Shown: piece by piece, positions 57,939 through 63,807 of the stretch | Layout: each line of letters opens with the position of its first letter | Numbering within the stretch: the first letter of the stretch is position 1 | NCBI RefSeq assembly: GCF_012044895.1 | Contig: NZ_CP050695.1 | Coordinates: forward strand, 3,378,501-3,442,500 | Direction of reading: 5' to 3' | DNA from: Aquisalimonas sp. 2447 | GTDB taxonomy: Bacteria; Pseudomonadota; Gammaproteobacteria; Nitrococcales; Aquisalimonadaceae | Length of the DNA stretch: 64,000 nt | The notes under the pieces: generated by a model | The model's input: the letters and a program-made list of their open reading frames with translations, nothing else | Told to the model about the DNA's origin: nothing | Database searches by the model: none | Made by a program: the position numbers and the translations under genes

Positions 57939-58013
57939 GGTGCATCAAGATGCACCCTACGGGTGCCGCGGCCCCGGAGCCACGCTGTAACGTAGGGTGC
58001 ATCTTGATGCACC
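57939..58013. repeat. Paired REP-like palindromes, family iii
   Basis: A 23-bp arm (GGTGCATC-AA-GATGCACC + CTACG) and its exact complement at 57991-58013. Each arm is itself a palindrome. Could act as a hairpin between pncB and the oxidoreductase gene. Confidence 0.88.
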
Positions 58014-58064
58014 GTTTTCCGACATCCCCGAACCTTCCCGGCACTTTCAACAAGGAGCCAACCA

Positions 58065-59210
58065 TTGAGCATTGTCATCATCGGGACCGGCCTTGGCGGC
58101 TACAACACCGCCAAGGAGCTGCGCAAGCACGACGCCGAGACGCCGCTGACCCTGATTACCGCCGATTCCGGGCGCTCGTACTCCAAGCCCATGCTGTCCA
58201 CCGGGTTCCGCAAGGAGCAGACACCGGCGGACCTGGTGCAGGGGGAGCCCGAGGCCATGGCGGAGCAGCTCGACGCGCGGGTGATCACGGGGACCCGGGT
58301 CGAGGCCGTCGACCGTGAGGCATCCGTGGTGCGGCTTGAAGGCGGCGAGACGGTTCCCTACGACCGCCTGGTCCTGGCCATGGGTGCGGACACGTTCACG
58401 CCACCGGTGGATGGTGATGCCGCCGGCGACATCTTCCAGGTGAACGACCTGGACCAGTACGAGCGTTTCCGCTCAGCGGCGGCGGATGTCCGCCGCATCC
58501 TGATCATGGGCGGCGGCCTGATCGGCTGCGAGTTCGCCAATGATCTGCGGGAAGCAGGCTACCAGGTGGATATGGTCTTCCCGGAGCCCCTGCCGCTGCC
58601 GCGGCTGCTGCCGGAGCGCCCGGCGAAGGCGCTGCACGAGGCACTGACCGAGCTGGGTGCCACGCTGCACACCGGGGTCACGGTGGAGGCGGTGAACCGG
58701 GCCGGCGGCGGATATGCGGCAACGCTGTCCGACGGGCGCGCCCTGGAGGCGGACGTGGTCCTCGCCGCCATTGGCCTGAAGCCGCGCACGGCGCTGGCGG
58801 AGGCGGCGGGGCTGACGGTCGGCCAGGGCATCCGCGTCGACAGCACACTCGCGACCTCAGACCCTGCCATTTTTGCCCTGGGCGACTGCGCGGAAGTGGA
58901 AGGCTGTGTGTTGCCCTACGTGGCGCCGCTTACCAACGCCGCGCGGGCGCTGGGGCAGACCCTGGCCGGCGAGGTGACCCAGGTGAATTACCCGGTGATG
59001 CCGGTGACGGTGAAGACGAGCTGTTGCCAGGTGGTGGCGTGGCCGCCGACGGCCGGCGCCGACGGGGAGTGGCAGTTCGACGGTGACGGGCGCGACCTGC
59101 GCGGGGAGTTCCGGGACGCCGAGGGGCATCTGCTGGGGTTCGCGCTCACCGGCAAGCGGATCAAGGAGCGGATGCCGTTGACGAAGGAGATGCCGGGGTT
59201 GCTCGGGTAA
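58065..59210 (+). CDS. FAD-dependent NAD(P)H oxidoreductase (rubredoxin-reductase-like)
   Basis: 381 residues from TTG 58065 with AGGAG 8 bp upstream. FAD-binding IIGTGLGGYNTAKELRKHD (2-20), YDRLVLAMGA, NAD-binding ILIMGGGLIGCEFANDLREAGY, and ADVVLAAIGLKPRT ... AIFALGDCAEVEG. Length and motifs fit the rubredoxin/nitric-oxide-reductase flavoprotein reductase group; no rubredoxin gene is adjacent. TSCCQVV near residue 320 is an extra Cys pair of unknown role. Physiological partner unknown. Confidence 0.87.
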   Translation: MSIVIIGTGLGGYNTAKELRKHDAETPLTLITADSGRSYSKPMLSTGFRKEQTPADLVQGEPEAMAEQLDARVITGTRVEAVDREASVVRLEGGETVPYDRLVLAMGADTFTPPVDGDAAGDIFQVNDLDQYERFRSAAADVRRILIMGGGLIGCEFANDLREAGYQVDMVFPEPLPLPRLLPERPAKALHEALTELGATLHTGVTVEAVNRAGGGYAATLSDGRALEADVVLAAIGLKPRTALAEAAGLTVGQGIRVDSTLATSDPAIFALGDCAEVEGCVLPYVAPLTNAARALGQTLAGEVTQVNYPVMPVTVKTSCCQVVAWPPTAGADGEWQFDGDGRDLRGEFRDAEGHLLGFALTGKRIKERMPLTKEMPGLLG

Positions 59211-59236: not shown

Positions 59237-59392
59237 CGTAGGGCGGACCTTTAGGTCCGCCGAAAAAAGACATGCAAGCCGAGGTGGCTTATCGAGGCAT
59301 GAACGGCGGACCTGAAGGTCCGCCCTACCAGGGCTGCGGACCGAGGGGGTTAATCCGGGGCAGTCATGGCGGACCTGAAGGTCCGCCCTACG
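59237..59392. repeat. Three REP-like palindromes, family i
   Basis: Units at 59237-59261 (inverted), 59305-59328 and 59368-59392, each GGCGGACCT/AGGTCCGCC with a CTAC tail, in the spacer downstream of the oxidoreductase gene. Confidence 0.88.
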
Positions 59393-59438
59393 GTTGCTAC
59401 GGTTGCTTCGATGCGGGATGGGCGGAGTTGCGTGGCCG

Positions 59439-60665
59439 TTACGTAGCGCCCTGCACGCCGAGGATGCGGGCCTGGGTGCGGCGGCGGTGGTGGATGTCCC
59501 AGGTGACGCCGACGGCGAGGATGACGAAGCCGGTGAGCTCGACAATCAGGCTGTAGTCCACGAACAGGGCGTAGCACACCACCAGGGCGCCGGCGGCACC
59601 GACGGCGACGGGCCCCGGGTTGCGGTGGTAACGCATGCCCGGGGCGATGGCGACCACGCTGAGCACTGCGAACAGGGCAATCGCCGCGGCCCAGGCGCCC
59701 TCGTGCAGGCCGACGCCCGCGCCCATGGCCGCGAGCAGGCCCAGCGCCGCCATGGTGCCGTAACAGGTGAGCAGCGCCAGCCCCAGGCTGGCTGCGCCAA
59801 TGATGCCGCGGCGCCACAGGGAGCGCACGCCCCGCACCGGATTCAGCCTTCTGGCCCAGTGCCGGACCAGTCCAGGTGCGTGCTCGCCGCGTGCCATGGC
59901 CAGCTCCATGGAATGTGCACCGAAACTCGCGGCGATCTCCCGGGTCTGGGCACTGGGGCTGTGGGCGAAGTAGTCCACTGAGCGGATGATGCGGATGTCC
60001 TCGAAGCCGGCATCACGGAACATGGCGAGCAGATCCTCGTCCACGGTGGCACCCACCACGCATTCCACCCATAAGCGCGGGTCCTCGCTGCAGTCCACGG
60101 TCACCGGCCGCCGGATCACCACATCGGCGATCTGCAGGCGACCGCCCGGGCGCAGCACGCGGAACATTTCCGCCACGGCGCGGCGCTTGTCGGGCACCAG
60201 GTTCAGGGCACCGTTGCTGGTGATGCAGTCCACGCTGCCGTCGGCCAGCGGCAGGCGCTCGGCGGACGCCTCGATGACGCTGACGTTGTGGTGGCCGCCC
60301 TCTTCCACGGCCTGCCGGATGCGGCGGGTCATGGCCCGGGTGAGATCCAGGGCGATGACGTGGCCGGTATCGCCCACCAGCCCGGCCGCGATGAGGGCAT
60401 CGTTGCCGGCGCCGGCGCCGATGTCCAGCACGGTGTCACCGGCCTGCATGGCCTCGGCGGAGAAGGGATGGCCGACGCCGGCAAAGGCCTCCAGGGACGT
60501 CGCGGGGAGCTGGTCGAGCTGTTCGGCGGGGTAGCCGATGGCCTCCGCGGCAGCGCGGCCGACGGGGAAGTGGAAGTGGTCGTCCGGGGCGCGCGCCACC
60601 GCGCCGTACATGTCCCGCACGGCGGTGAAGATCTGTTCCCGCGAATACCCGAGTATCGCCACCAT
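59439..60665 (-). CDS. ArsM-like methyltransferase fused to MerC-like membrane domain
   Basis: 408 residues. N-terminal ~60 residues: VRDMYGAVARAPDDHFHFPVGRAAAEAIGYPAEQLDQLP...SLEAFAGVGHP, as in ArsM-family enzymes. SAM-binding VLDIGAGAGNDALIAAGLVG (~80-99). Where arsenite methyltransferases have SNCVINL, this has SNGALNLVPDK: the catalytic Cys is Gly. The C-terminal ~120 residues carry four membrane spans resembling MerC (GLALLTCYGTMAALGLLAAMGAGVG, AAIALFAVLSVVAIAPGM, VGAAGALVVCYALFVDY, VELTGFVILAVGVTWDI), with one Cys instead of the MerC pair. Third gene of the ECF operon. Substrate unknown; metal(loid) or other soft nucleophile suspected. Confidence 0.8.
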   Translation of the reverse strand: MVAILGYSREQIFTAVRDMYGAVARAPDDHFHFPVGRAAAEAIGYPAEQLDQLPATSLEAFAGVGHPFSAEAMQAGDTVLDIGAGAGNDALIAAGLVGDTGHVIALDLTRAMTRRIRQAVEEGGHHNVSVIEASAERLPLADGSVDCITSNGALNLVPDKRRAVAEMFRVLRPGGRLQIADVVIRRPVTVDCSEDPRLWVECVVGATVDEDLLAMFRDAGFEDIRIIRSVDYFAHSPSAQTREIAASFGAHSMELAMARGEHAPGLVRHWARRLNPVRGVRSLWRRGIIGAASLGLALLTCYGTMAALGLLAAMGAGVGLHEGAWAAAIALFAVLSVVAIAPGMRYHRNPGPVAVGAAGALVVCYALFVDYSLIVELTGFVILAVGVTWDIHHRRRTQARILGVQGAT

Positions 60666-60692
60666 GGCCGCATTCCCTCCCGCGCCGTGGTG

Positions 60693-60929
60693 TCAGTAGC
60701 GATCCAGCACCTTTTTCAGCCGACGCCGCAGCCGCTCCGGTGCGGGCGCCGTTCCCGTCTGCTGCACGCGGTTGCGGAGATGTTTCTCGAACTCCGCCCG
60801 CGTGAAGCAGTCACGACAGCGTGCCAGGTGCCGGTCGATGGCAGCGAGGCGGTCGTCGTCCAGTTCCTCATCCAGGTAGGCGAAGAGCTGGTCCAGGACC
60901 TCCTCGCAGGTCAGGTCACCGTGACTCAT
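60693..60929 (-). CDS. Zinc-binding anti-sigma factor (ZAS/zf-HC2)
   Basis: 78 residues. HLARCRDC carries the H-x3-C-x2-C zinc motif of ZAS anti-sigma factors, preceded by CEEVLDQLFAYLDEELDDDRLAAIDR. It starts within the sigma gene stop (4-nt overlap), which is typical of cognate pairs. Thiol-reactive metals or oxidants release such proteins from their sigma factor. Confidence 0.88.
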   Translation of the reverse strand: MSHGDLTCEEVLDQLFAYLDEELDDDRLAAIDRHLARCRDCFTRAEFEKHLRNRVQQTGTAPAPERLRRRLKKVLDRY

Positions 60930-61585
60930 TGTCGCTCCTCGCCGTCGCCGGGAGGCTTCTGGCACGACGGTGATCCCTGCTCCGTCTGCCGGCCGTACTC
61001 CCACAATGCCTTTTGCAGCAGGCCACGTCCGCGATTGAGCCGCGAACGCACGGTCCCCACGGGCACCGCCAGCAAGGCCGCTGCTTCCTCATAGGTATAC
61101 CCTTGCAGTTCCACCAGCACAACCACCAGCCGATAGGCGTCCGGGAGGGCGTCGACGGCGCGGGCGAGATCCTCCTGATCGAGCCCGTCCACGAACTGCT
61201 GCTCGGCGGTACCCCACCACAGCAGGAAGGGCTGATGGAGCTTGCGGAACAGGGAGAAGGAGGCCGCGTCCTCGGCATCAGCGGGCAGTTCGTCCCAGGA
61301 GGCCTCATGGTCCTGGCGGGAGCGGCGGCGGCGCCACTGGGTGCAGAAGGTGTTGTTCAGGATGCGGAACATCCAGCCCTCGAAGTGCCCCCAGTCACGC
61401 AACTCGGGCAGCTTCTCCCAGGCCCGCTCCACCGCCTCGGCCACCACGTCTTCGGCGTCGTCGGGGTTGCGGGTGAGGCGCAATGCGGTGCCGTAGAGGC
61501 GGTCCAGCACGCACTCCAGGCGCTCCTCGAAGCGCGTGCATAACACCTCACGCTGGTGGCGCTTCTGGCTGTCCCCGTCTGCCAC
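60926..61585 (-). CDS. ECF-type RNA polymerase sigma factor
   Basis: 219 residues. Region 2: LYGTALRLTRNPDDAEDVVAEAVERAWEKLPELRDWGHFEGWMFRILNNTFCTQWRRR; region 4: LPDAYRLVVVLVELQGYTYEEAAALLAVPVGTVRSRLNRGRGLLQKAL. No sigma regions 1 and 3, hence ECF. Divergent to the methyltransferase at 61760; it likely drives both directions. Confidence 0.92.
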   Translation of the reverse strand: MADGDSQKRHQREVLCTRFEERLECVLDRLYGTALRLTRNPDDAEDVVAEAVERAWEKLPELRDWGHFEGWMFRILNNTFCTQWRRRRSRQDHEASWDELPADAEDAASFSLFRKLHQPFLLWWGTAEQQFVDGLDQEDLARAVDALPDAYRLVVVLVELQGYTYEEAAALLAVPVGTVRSRLNRGRGLLQKALWEYGRQTEQGSPSCQKPPGDGEERQ

Positions 61586-61668
61586 GACTGCCCTCGCCCA
61601 GGGAGGCGTCCGTCTTCACTCCCTGCTCCCGGAAGTCTAGTCCTTTTCGTCGGATGTCCAGAGAGCTT

Positions 61669-61695
61669 GGAACCATTCGGCACCTGCCGTGCGTC
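61669..61695 (+). promoter_or_regulatory. Candidate ECF-type promoter
   Basis: GGAACC then 17 bp then CGTC, a common ECF -35/-10 pattern, about 65 bp upstream of the methyltransferase ATG at 61760. A second GGAAC at 61700-61704 is present with no evident -10. Tentative. Confidence 0.4.
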
Positions 61696-61759
61696 CTTGG
61701 GAACACTCCGGGAGATGCGTTCCGGGGTGATGCCAACGCGAAACGGAGGAGAGACCGCC

Positions 61760-62560
61760 ATGAGCACAGCAACAACAGCAATCCGCGAATCCGGCCTGGT
61801 GAACCAGGAGGCCCTGCGCCAGAAGGTGAAGGACATGTACCGCCGGGTGGCGAAGGAGCCCGAGGGGGATTTCCACTTCGCCATGGGCCGGCCCCTGGCC
61901 GAGGAGCTGGGCTATCCCCCAGCGGACCTGGACCGCATTCCCCGGCAGGCGCTGGAGTCCTTCGCCGGGGTCGGGTACTTCCTGGGCCTCGCGGACATCC
62001 AGCCCGGCGAGCGGGTGCTGGACCTCGGCAGCGGCTCCGGGACCGATACTTTCCTGGCCGCCCTGTACACCGGCACGGAGGGTCACGTTCTGGGGCTGGA
62101 CATGACCGACGCGCAGCGGGACAAGGCCCAGCGGCTGGCGGAGGAAGCCTGGTTCACGAACATCAGCTTCCATGCCGGCTACATCGAGGAGACACCGTTC
62201 GAAGACGCCAGCGTGGACGTGGTGATCAGCAACGGCGTCATCAACCTGTCCGCGGAGAAGGACCGGGTGTTCGCCGAGATCGCCCGGGTGCTGCGGCCCG
62301 GGGGGCGACTGGCACTGTCGGACATCGTCACCGAGAGCCAGCTCCCAGAGAAGGTGAAGTGCGACGCCACCCTGTGGGCGGCCTGCATCGGCGGCGCCAT
62401 GCAGCAGAACGACTACCGGGGCGGAATGACCGCCGCCGGCCTGCGGGTGGCGACGATACAGGACAACCCGCAGTACCGCTTCCTCACCGAGGCCGCCCAG
62501 GGCGCAAGCCGCGCCTATGGGGTGAAGAGCGTGAACGTGCTGGCGGTGAAGCCGGCGTAA
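61760..62560 (+). CDS. ArsM-like methyltransferase
   Basis: 266 residues from ATG 61760 (GGAGGAGAG upstream). N-terminal helical segment [42 protein letters not shown], similar to the MerC fusion protein. SAM-binding [18 protein letters not shown]. In place of SNCVINL it reads [15 protein letters not shown]; the later ACIGGA Cys is present. Class I SAM methyltransferase, close in layout to arsenite methyltransferases but lacking one of their catalytic Cys. Divergent from the ECF sigma gene. Probably a target of that sigma factor. Confidence 0.85.
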
Positions 62561-62592
62561 CACGGTGCGAACCAACCAGTAGGAGATCAGCC

Positions 62593-63075
62593 ATGAACCG
62601 TTTGACCATCATTACCACTGCATCCGCCCTGGCCCTTGGCCTGTCCACGGCCCTGGCGGGGGACAACCACTACGAGCCGGGCTCCGGCGGGCACCTGTTC
62701 GTCATGGGCGACGAACTGGAGTGGGGCCCGGTGAGCTCCATGGGCGAAGGGGCCGAGATCGCCGTGATCGAAGGGGATCTCGGCAAGGAAGAGCCCTTCA
62801 CCTTCCGCCTGCGGCTGGAGGACGGCTACGAGATCAAGCCGCACGTCCATCCGGCGTACGAACGCGGCACCATCCTCCAGGGCACCCTGCATTTCGCCCA
62901 TGGCGAGGAGTTCGACCGCGATCAGACCAAGGCCCTGCCCGAAGGGAGCACCTTCATCATGGCACCGGGGGCGCCCATGTACGGCTACGCCGAGGGTGAG
63001 GTGATCTTCCAGCTTCACGGGGAAGGCCCCTGGGGCATCGAGTACCTCAACGAGGAGCACGATCCCCGGCAATAG
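62593..63075 (+). CDS. Secreted cupin-domain protein
   Basis: 160 residues. AGGAG 7 bp before the ATG; signal peptide MNRLTIITTASALALGLSTALA. Cupin motif 1: IKPHVHPAYERGTILQGTLHF (His-x-His and Glu as metal ligands); motif 2 region FIMAPGAPMYGYAEGEVIFQLHGEGPW. Periplasmic metal-binding or small-molecule-binding role. Follows the methyltransferase by 32 bp, so probably the same operon. Confidence 0.85.
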   Translation: MNRLTIITTASALALGLSTALAGDNHYEPGSGGHLFVMGDELEWGPVSSMGEGAEIAVIEGDLGKEEPFTFRLRLEDGYEIKPHVHPAYERGTILQGTLHFAHGEEFDRDQTKALPEGSTFIMAPGAPMYGYAEGEVIFQLHGEGPWGIEYLNEEHDPRQ

Positions 63076-63162
63076 GGCCGGGTCAACACCGGGCCGTGGG
63101 GTACGGCAATACCCTGCGGCCCGGCTCAGCGAGGCCCATGACAGGCGCGGAGGGGGTACACC

Positions 63163-63807
63163 ATGCAACCGGACGCGGTGGACAAAATCGGGGAATGCCG
63201 CTGGCAGCTCCTGTGCCTCCGGTGCCGCCAGTTGGTCCCGCGCATGAGGACAATCCTGGTGCTGGCGGCCGTGGTGCCGACGGTGGCAAAGGTTGCGGGG
63301 ACGTCTCCGGAGTGGCTGCTTCAGGGCACGGACAGCATGCTTGTGCTGATCGCTGCCTGCGTGATCTACGCGCTGCTTCTCGCCATTCCCTTCATTCCGT
63401 CGGTGGAGATCGGGCTGCTGATCATGGTGCTGTTCGGGGCACCGGGAGCCGCGGGGGCCTATCTGGCGACCTGTACCGGCCTTGCCGGAGCCTACCTGAT
63501 CGGCCGTCGACTGGGCGGTACCGGGCCGTTCCGGCGGATCAACCTGCCGCCCCGCTACAGCGCACGGCTGAGTGCCATCACCGCCCGACTGCCCGCCGGC
63601 CTGCTGCCGGTACTCTCGCTAGCCACGCTGCTGAACATGCCCGGTAACACCGCCTTGGGCGGTGGCGGCGGTATCGCCATGGCCTACGGCGCCGGCCGCC
63701 TTCTCTCCGCCCCCGCCTTCCTGACCACCGTGGCTCTGGCCACGGGCATTCTGCCTCTCGCCTTTGTCACCGGCCTGGTCGGGCTGGAGCGCTGGTTGGA
63801 TCCGTAA
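63163..63807 (+). CDS. VTT/TVP38-like membrane protein
   Basis: 214 residues. A cytosolic N-terminal segment with a CLRC pair, then four or five spans: TILVLAAVVPTVAKV, MLVLIAACVIYALLLAIPFIPSVEIGLLIMVLFG, AGAYLATCTGLAGAYLIGRR, LLPVLSLATLLNM, FLTTVALATGILPLAFVTGLVG. PFIPSVEIG and GAYLATCTG recall the SNARE-associated/VTT fold. Function unknown. Downstream of the cupin gene by 87 bp; transcript membership likely but not certain. Confidence 0.7.
   Translation: MQPDAVDKIGECRWQLLCLRCRQLVPRMRTILVLAAVVPTVAKVAGTSPEWLLQGTDSMLVLIAACVIYALLLAIPFIPSVEIGLLIMVLFGAPGAAGAYLATCTGLAGAYLIGRRLGGTGPFRRINLPPRYSARLSAITARLPAGLLPVLSLATLLNMPGNTALGGGGGIAMAYGAGRLLSAPAFLTTVALATGILPLAFVTGLVGLERWLDP

Follow-up and report, generated by a model that had tools for sequence, protein, structure and literature searches.

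The window analysed here is a stretch of 64,000 nucleotides from the 3.97 Mb genome of Aquisalimonas sp. 2447. Between positions 59439 and 63807 it carries a gene set built around an extracytoplasmic function (ECF) sigma factor, a zinc anti-sigma factor and two S-adenosylmethionine (SAM)-dependent methyltransferases. The six-gene arrangement described for this segment by the initial annotation was confirmed, with all six reading frames present in two divergent groups and family matches found for five of them. The features of the locus, in order of position, are:

59439..60665, minus strand: SAM methyltransferase fused to a MerC-family domain, 408 residues, predicted to be membrane-tethered (Methyltransf_31/25/11)
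59493..59801, minus strand: MerC-family domain, residues 289-391 of the fusion (PF03203, 40.6 bits, cut-off 27.6)
60693..60929, minus strand: zinc anti-sigma factor, RsrA-like, 78 residues (zf-HC2 and TIGR03988)
60926..61585, minus strand: ECF sigma factor, 219 residues, with the GTG start as listed (Sigma70_r2 and r4_2 matches)
61669..61696, plus strand: putative ECF-type promoter GGAAC-N18-CGTCC facing the second methyltransferase gene (pattern match)
61760..62560, plus strand: soluble SAM methyltransferase, 266 residues (PRK11873, 223 bits, under the cut-off of 263)
62593..63075, plus strand: cupin, 160 residues, with a signal-like N-terminus (DUF4437, 26.2 bits, cut-off 24)
63163..63807, plus strand: VTT-like membrane protein, 214 residues, an optional member (homologue in 6 of 42 loci; weak PF09335 matches in relatives)

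The ATG of the anti-sigma gene overlaps the stop codon of the sigma gene (ATGA).

In order to define the distribution of the gene set, the fusion protein was sought in the genomes of 84,980 species using a seed method that finds close relatives. This search gave 36 loci, 31 of which hold true relatives; the other five are weak matches without the system. Whole-genome searches added further loci, with 11 of 54 genomes of the order being positive (the window genome included). Carriers belong to Halomonas, Billgrantia, Litchfieldella, Aquisalimonas, Thioalkalivibrio and a few other Gamma- and Alphaproteobacteria. The sigma factor is sparse, being found in 10 of 369 genomes of the class (E 1e-30) and 4 of 398 genomes of the phylum (E 1e-40), counting the window genome in both. 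Sigma factor, anti-sigma factor and first methyltransferase occur together, as a trio, in 42 of the 51 combined loci. The nine loci without the trio comprise three cut by contig ends (L028, L055 and L125), five sister-group loci, and L107, in which sigma and anti-sigma genes are present and the first methyltransferase is absent. Among the 42 trio loci, 31 have a second methyltransferase of one kind or another close by, 33 a cupin belonging to one of two types, 7 a DsrE gene, and only 6 a VTT-like gene. The MerC domain was scored as fused by script in 35 trio loci, and L056 (in two pieces) and L106 match over both the methyltransferase and MerC parts as well; L057, L105 and L112 have no MerC domain, and in L058 and L110 the contig ends at that place. 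The initial annotation had presented the six genes as a self-contained unit, a view that would fall if the neighbouring genes were not conserved together. Joint conservation was found for five of the six genes, which form the core of the unit, whereas the VTT-like gene is missing from most loci and is an optional member.

Two further occurrences were recorded. Locus L105 is a copy of the system on plasmid pCO-6 of Chelatococcus sp. CO-6, without MerC and with the alternative cupin. Haloarchaeal plasmids encode proteins related to the methyltransferase part, with 33-42% identity to it, and a number of these are annotated as arsenite methyltransferase.

Most loci contain two facing copies of the sequence GGGAAC-N17-GCGTCC between the sigma gene and its divergent neighbour. 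In the form GGAAC-N15-19-CGTC, a site directed toward sigma was present in 28 of 35 regions and a divergent site in 31 of 35, whereas across 200 first-order Markov resamplings the means were 0.45 and 0.53, respectively, and the maximum was 3 for each. The 35 regions are what is left of 39 sigma regions after removal of three duplicates of a single place and of a region cut by a contig end. The window has the divergent site only (61669-61696, with an 18-base spacer), and no consensus site facing sigma was found there. Searches with the strict motif gave 55 matches in 28 carrier genomes compared with 7 for a reversed control pattern, and 18 compared with 7 in 17 further genomes or records.

The motif also accompanies genes that have moved. 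It stands ahead of a displaced second methyltransferase gene in L042 and of an operon of DsrE, cupin, methyltransferase and sigma genes in L057, and it separately precedes both the DsrE gene and the second methyltransferase gene in L109. In L106 it lies ahead of a stand-alone MerC protein gene and of a third methyltransferase family, and in L107 ahead of the cupin gene and of the third methyltransferase gene. Fifteen matches to the strict motif in the 28-genome set are off-locus, of which seven precede a sensible gene and eight, about the control level, do not. The seven are a gene for a 102-residue protein (four cases), and one case each of the third methyltransferase, a truncated globin and mddA. 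The 102-residue gene was found in 5 of 39 carrier genomes, all of the Halomonas group (L177-L181, near position 1500), with the motif approximately 90 bases upstream in all five; its product has no Pfam or NCBIfam match. The truncated globin (L161, genome G421; PF01152, 43.4 bits) has a signal-like N-terminus, lies 136 bases past a strict motif and was seen in one genome only. Off-locus matches L157, L164-L170, L213 and L226 were dropped as members, having reading frames across the site or no interpretable gene. Nine of the 28 off-locus loose-motif matches in the window genome were inspected for additional members; all nine overlap reading frames, and none is claimed.

The joint conservation and the shared promoter motif place this unit far beyond chance. 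Because the genes co-occur, have a common promoter, and are tracked by the motif when moved, as is the off-locus 102-residue gene, the set very probably represents a small autoregulated regulon of the ECF sigma factor. There is good comparative evidence that the sigma factor acts at the locus encoding it and that in some carriers it also acts at other sites. In relatives the predicted regulon also includes DsrE, the third methyltransferase family, the stand-alone MerC protein, the second cupin type and the 102-residue protein, and with this wider membership thiols or chalcogens become the more likely substrates. Literature searches, which left most subscription papers outside their coverage, turned up no description of this gene set, in keeping with the initial remark that no system of this composition was known. 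The sigma/anti-sigma/methyltransferase set is genuine and apparently undescribed, the switch itself being of a known type.

The closest solved relative of the sigma factor is M. tuberculosis SigH, and its score against the SigR/SigH model TIGR02947 was 123.1 bits, below the cut-off of 251.55. The linker of the sigma factor, LHQPFLLWW, is strongly conserved: seven of the nine positions are invariant across all 38 rows and the remaining two agree in 37 of them, and a related FLxWW pattern occurs in two alignable sister sigma sequences. The anti-sigma factor matched zf-HC2 at 41.5 bits (cut-off 22.2) and only just exceeded the cut-off of the RsrA model TIGR03988 (62.7 against 62.5 bits). Its C8-H34-C38-C41 (CHCC) motif was present in 40 of 40 rows, with no further cysteine conserved in half of the rows (the sigma and anti-sigma alignments retain the three duplicates of a single place). 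The spacing of this motif is that of RsrA, for which the zinc ligands are reported to be Cys11-His37-Cys41-Cys44 and the first, N-terminal cysteine to be essential for oxidant-driven release (PMC4960319). The invariant CHCC motif at RsrA spacing, together with the TIGR03988 score, upholds the earlier description of a zinc anti-sigma factor of redox-sensing type, and the anti-sigma switch probably senses thiol stress.

The five sister-group loci (L111 and L113-L116) are without the methyltransferase(-MerC) fusion and without the motif at sigma. In all five, a DsrE gene carrying a CPPC-type motif is located no more than approximately 1.4 kb from the sigma/anti-sigma pair, and in L115 and L116 a periplasmic-looking DsrE-like protein, read by eye, follows the anti-sigma factor.

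Both methyltransferases are similar to ArsM, in sequence as well as in fold. For the fusion (structure model with a mean predicted local distance difference test score, pLDDT, of 78), the closest solved fold is that of ArsM, and matches to several Methyltransf families were obtained. Neither reached the 263-bit cut-off of PRK11873 (NF008823), the fusion scoring 189.8 and the second methyltransferase 223.2 bits. The cysteine of the ArsM SNC motif (the Cys174 position) was present in 30 of 30 sampled ArsM sequences; in the system the motif reads SNG, glycine standing there in every fusion (36 of 36) and every second enzyme (22 of 22). The second conserved ArsM cysteine (the Cys224 position) is kept throughout, as C202 in the 36 fusions and as C209 in the 22 second enzymes, the ArsM alignment being shown for the second enzyme. 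An additional cysteine stands 8-10 residues earlier (C192 in 36 of 36 fusions, C201 in 20 of 22 second enzymes). With the ArsM cysteine retained and an extra one nearby, soft-ligand chemistry therefore remains plausible. A phylogenetic tree resolved three distinct clades, one each for ArsM, the fusion group and the second methyltransferase, supported at 100/100, 100/100 and 99/97; this tree holds several proteins twice with shifted ends, includes 15 of the 30 ArsM sequences, and has long branches flagged by the program. Membership of ArsM was rejected for both enzymes on the missing SNC cysteine, the PRK11873 scores and their position outside the ArsM clade. The label "ArsM-like" given initially is accurate for the fold and superfamily only.

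The MerC fusion was identified correctly from the outset, PF03203 exceeding its cut-off at residues 289-391. The MerC mercury transporter has a cysteine pair in its first membrane helix; no such pair was found in the MerC domain of the fusion, where C301 is the sole conserved cysteine (36 of 36). The cupin has H84, H86, E90 and H142 in 22 of 22 rows and shows distant similarity to the ChrR cupin. It had been described as secreted; the cupin family is confirmed by the DUF4437 match, and the signal-like N-terminus was judged by eye. The proposed VTT-like identity of the membrane protein is weaker: three of seven family members match PF09335 weakly (best E 0.0012), and the window protein itself has no Pfam match and gave a single-sequence structure model with a pLDDT of 53.

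DsrE is a sulfur-relay family, and its identity in the regulon loci is given by a Pfam match. All seven regulon DsrE copies have a motif upstream of them in the same orientation, at a distance of 76-98 bases in three cases and 0.9-3.2 kb in four. A second link to sulfur is provided by the Mdd enzymes, which are SAM methyltransferases, one of them from a Halomonas, whose genes are reported to be induced by sulfide and/or methanethiol (PMC12904073, PMC13360808). Methyltransferases of the system's families follow mddA in three of six carrier copies (L172, L173 and L176) compared with 1 of 12 background loci, the background count covering 12 mddA loci of 17 matches, some of which are cut by contig ends. 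An SNG-type methyltransferase lies less than 1 kb after mddA in L172, L173 and L232, and a member of the third methyltransferase family lies less than 1 kb after it in L176. In a further background case (G189), an NF008823 match is located approximately 2 kb from mddA by coordinates alone. One mddA copy, well over its cut-off, is preceded by the motif. Enrichment of mddA was discarded as support, as the share of genomes with the gene is no higher among carriers (5 of 39) than in the class (16 of 143); only the adjacency and the motif-marked copy were kept. The DsrE genes, both those in 7 of the 42 trio loci and those near all five sister sigma genes, count in favour of the sulfur link too.

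The gene set, the common promoter, the CHCC motif and the assignment of the methyltransferases outside ArsM are established by comparison of sequences. Our best explanation, in which a redox-released sigma factor drives SAM-dependent methylation and the autoregulated regulon is combined with thiol or chalcogen chemistry, is held with slightly more doubt than assurance; for thiol or chalcogen methylation as the chemistry of the regulon the doubt is plainly greater. A thiol-reactive or sulfur-derived agent would oxidise or modify the zinc-binding cysteines of the cytoplasmic anti-sigma factor, zinc would leave, and sigma would be freed, as in RsrA. Free sigma would transcribe its own operon of sigma, anti-sigma and membrane-tethered methyltransferase genes (in the window, the operon without a consensus site) and also the divergent operon of soluble methyltransferase, periplasmic cupin and membrane protein genes. 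The least certain steps are the last ones: the methyltransferases may use SAM on small soft nucleophiles such as sulfide, methanethiol, other small thiols or selenium and tellurium analogues, giving products that could be less reactive, volatile or exportable, while the MerC domain might hold one of these enzymes at the membrane, and related species in the periplasm might be acted on by the cupin. In its most specific form this would be a dedicated small-thiol or chalcogen response, with the anti-sigma factor sensing sulfide, persulfide, methanethiol or their selenium or tellurium equivalents, and up to three methyltransferase families, one of them MerC-anchored, methylating them; this form is tentative and, as a whole, rather unlikely. 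Several observations weigh against the thiol or chalcogen explanation. The second methyltransferase is not nearby in 11 of 42 trio loci, 35 of the 42 are without DsrE, five of the six carrier mddA copies have no motif, and no mddA was found in the window genome, where the looser motif is not enriched either (29 matches compared with 34 for the control). The lack of mddA enrichment in carriers counts on the same side, as does the cysteine pair conserved in both methyltransferases, which could bind metals.

This cysteine pair is central to soft-metal or metalloid detoxification, one of the functions proposed by the initial annotation alongside a response to reactive electrophiles. Here variant ArsM-like enzymes would use the pair to bind species such as As(III), Sb(III) or Hg(II), MerC would move the metal, and the metal would displace the anti-sigma zinc. 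The likeness to ArsM and the MerC match fit such a role. However, the SNC cysteine is glycine in both methyltransferases, both fall outside ArsM by score and by clade, and the MerC domain has one conserved cysteine and no pair, all of which speak against the metal reading and make it distinctly unlikely. General defence against oxidants or electrophiles (disulfide stress, hypochlorite or singlet oxygen), with the methyltransferases modifying some component of the cell such as a lipid or quinone, and with a signal other than sulfur species, would accord with the RsrA-type CHCC motif, RsrA being reported to sense disulfide stress (PMC4960319), with the distant likeness of the cupin to ChrR, and with the reported rise of mddM1/mddM2 expression in response to H2O2 as well (PMC12904073). 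We consider it unlikely, as the predicted regulon has a narrow range in which methyltransferases and DsrE are prominent, and the inspected motif-bearing genes included none recognisable as a repair gene of the thioredoxin, peroxiredoxin or a similar type. An accidental neighbourhood of unrelated genes might be suggested by the poorly conserved VTT-like gene and by the NorW-like reductase gene (58065-59210) upstream of the system, which was not found with the system in other loci. It is extremely improbable, being already contradicted for the five core genes by their co-conservation in Halomonas and its relatives, Aquisalimonas, Thioalkalivibrio and Alphaproteobacteria, and by a promoter that tracks relocated genes.

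The analysis provides a concrete candidate regulon (sigma, sensor, promoter and members) for methyltransferases that NCBI models place near "arsenite methyltransferase" yet which are without a key arsenic ligand, and the promoter sequence alone allows further members to be found. A dedicated small-thiol or chalcogen response, if it exists, would give halophiles and alkaliphiles a regulated way of making dimethyl sulfide-type products. If the thiol reading is right, zinc anti-sigma sensing would be connected to methylation of volatile sulfur (or selenium or tellurium) in salt and soda environments, a connection for which no paper turned up in the literature searches.

Outside the system, the surroundings of the reductase gene contain repeats. 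A dispersed inverted repeat, TAGGGCGGACCTNNAGGTCCGCC, has 61 + 64 strand matches genome-wide compared with 0 for a control pattern, and related copies sit between the reductase and fusion genes (window 59238-59395). An inverted pair of gcatcaagatgcaccctacg sequences (window 57940-58015), between a nicotinate phosphoribosyltransferase-like gene read from the sequence and the NorW-like gene, is perhaps another repeat family.

Among known systems, RpoE-ChrR (ECF11) also has a zinc anti-sigma factor, and the cupin described here is weakly similar to that of ChrR. ChrR has an HHCC zinc site and its cupin fused to the anti-sigma factor, whereas here the site is CHCC, the cupin is a separate protein and the sigma factor is distant (2q1z, E 0.00034); ECF11/ChrR membership was rejected on the 78-residue CHCC anti-sigma factor and the separate cupin gene. 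The methyltransferases share with ArsM the fold, the SAM motifs and the second conserved cysteine, and differ in SNG for SNC, clade, model score and the MerC fusion. The SigR-RsrA and SigH-RshA systems of Actinobacteria (ECF12) have in common with this one a SigH-like sigma factor, the same CHCC spacing and an autoregulated promoter starting GGGAA. In contrast, the host here is proteobacterial, the sigma factor is far under the actinobacterial model cut-off, the predicted regulon is narrow and made up of methyltransferases, and the -10 element is CGTCC, whereas that of the SigR consensus is of the GTT type. AS12 anti-sigma factors are reported only in Actinobacteria (PMC7406223). Like the Mdd S-methyltransferases (MddA, MddH and MddM1/2), the enzymes of the system are SAM-dependent, as judged by family, and mddA adjoins methyltransferases of the same families; MddA itself belongs to a different membrane family, and MddH, first discovered in a Halomonas, is reported to belong to the UbiE family (PMC12904073, PMC13360808). 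No sigma-factor link for Mdd enzymes was found in the literature searches. RpoE1/RpoE4 of Sinorhizobium (ECF26) likewise control a small autoregulated ECF regulon for toxic sulfur species, although the reported target is sulfite oxidation by SorT and no methyltransferases appear in the inspected part of the regulon table (PMC3511301). By analogy, these sulfite-responsive ECF26 factors offer a precedent for a small ECF regulon directed at toxic sulfur species.

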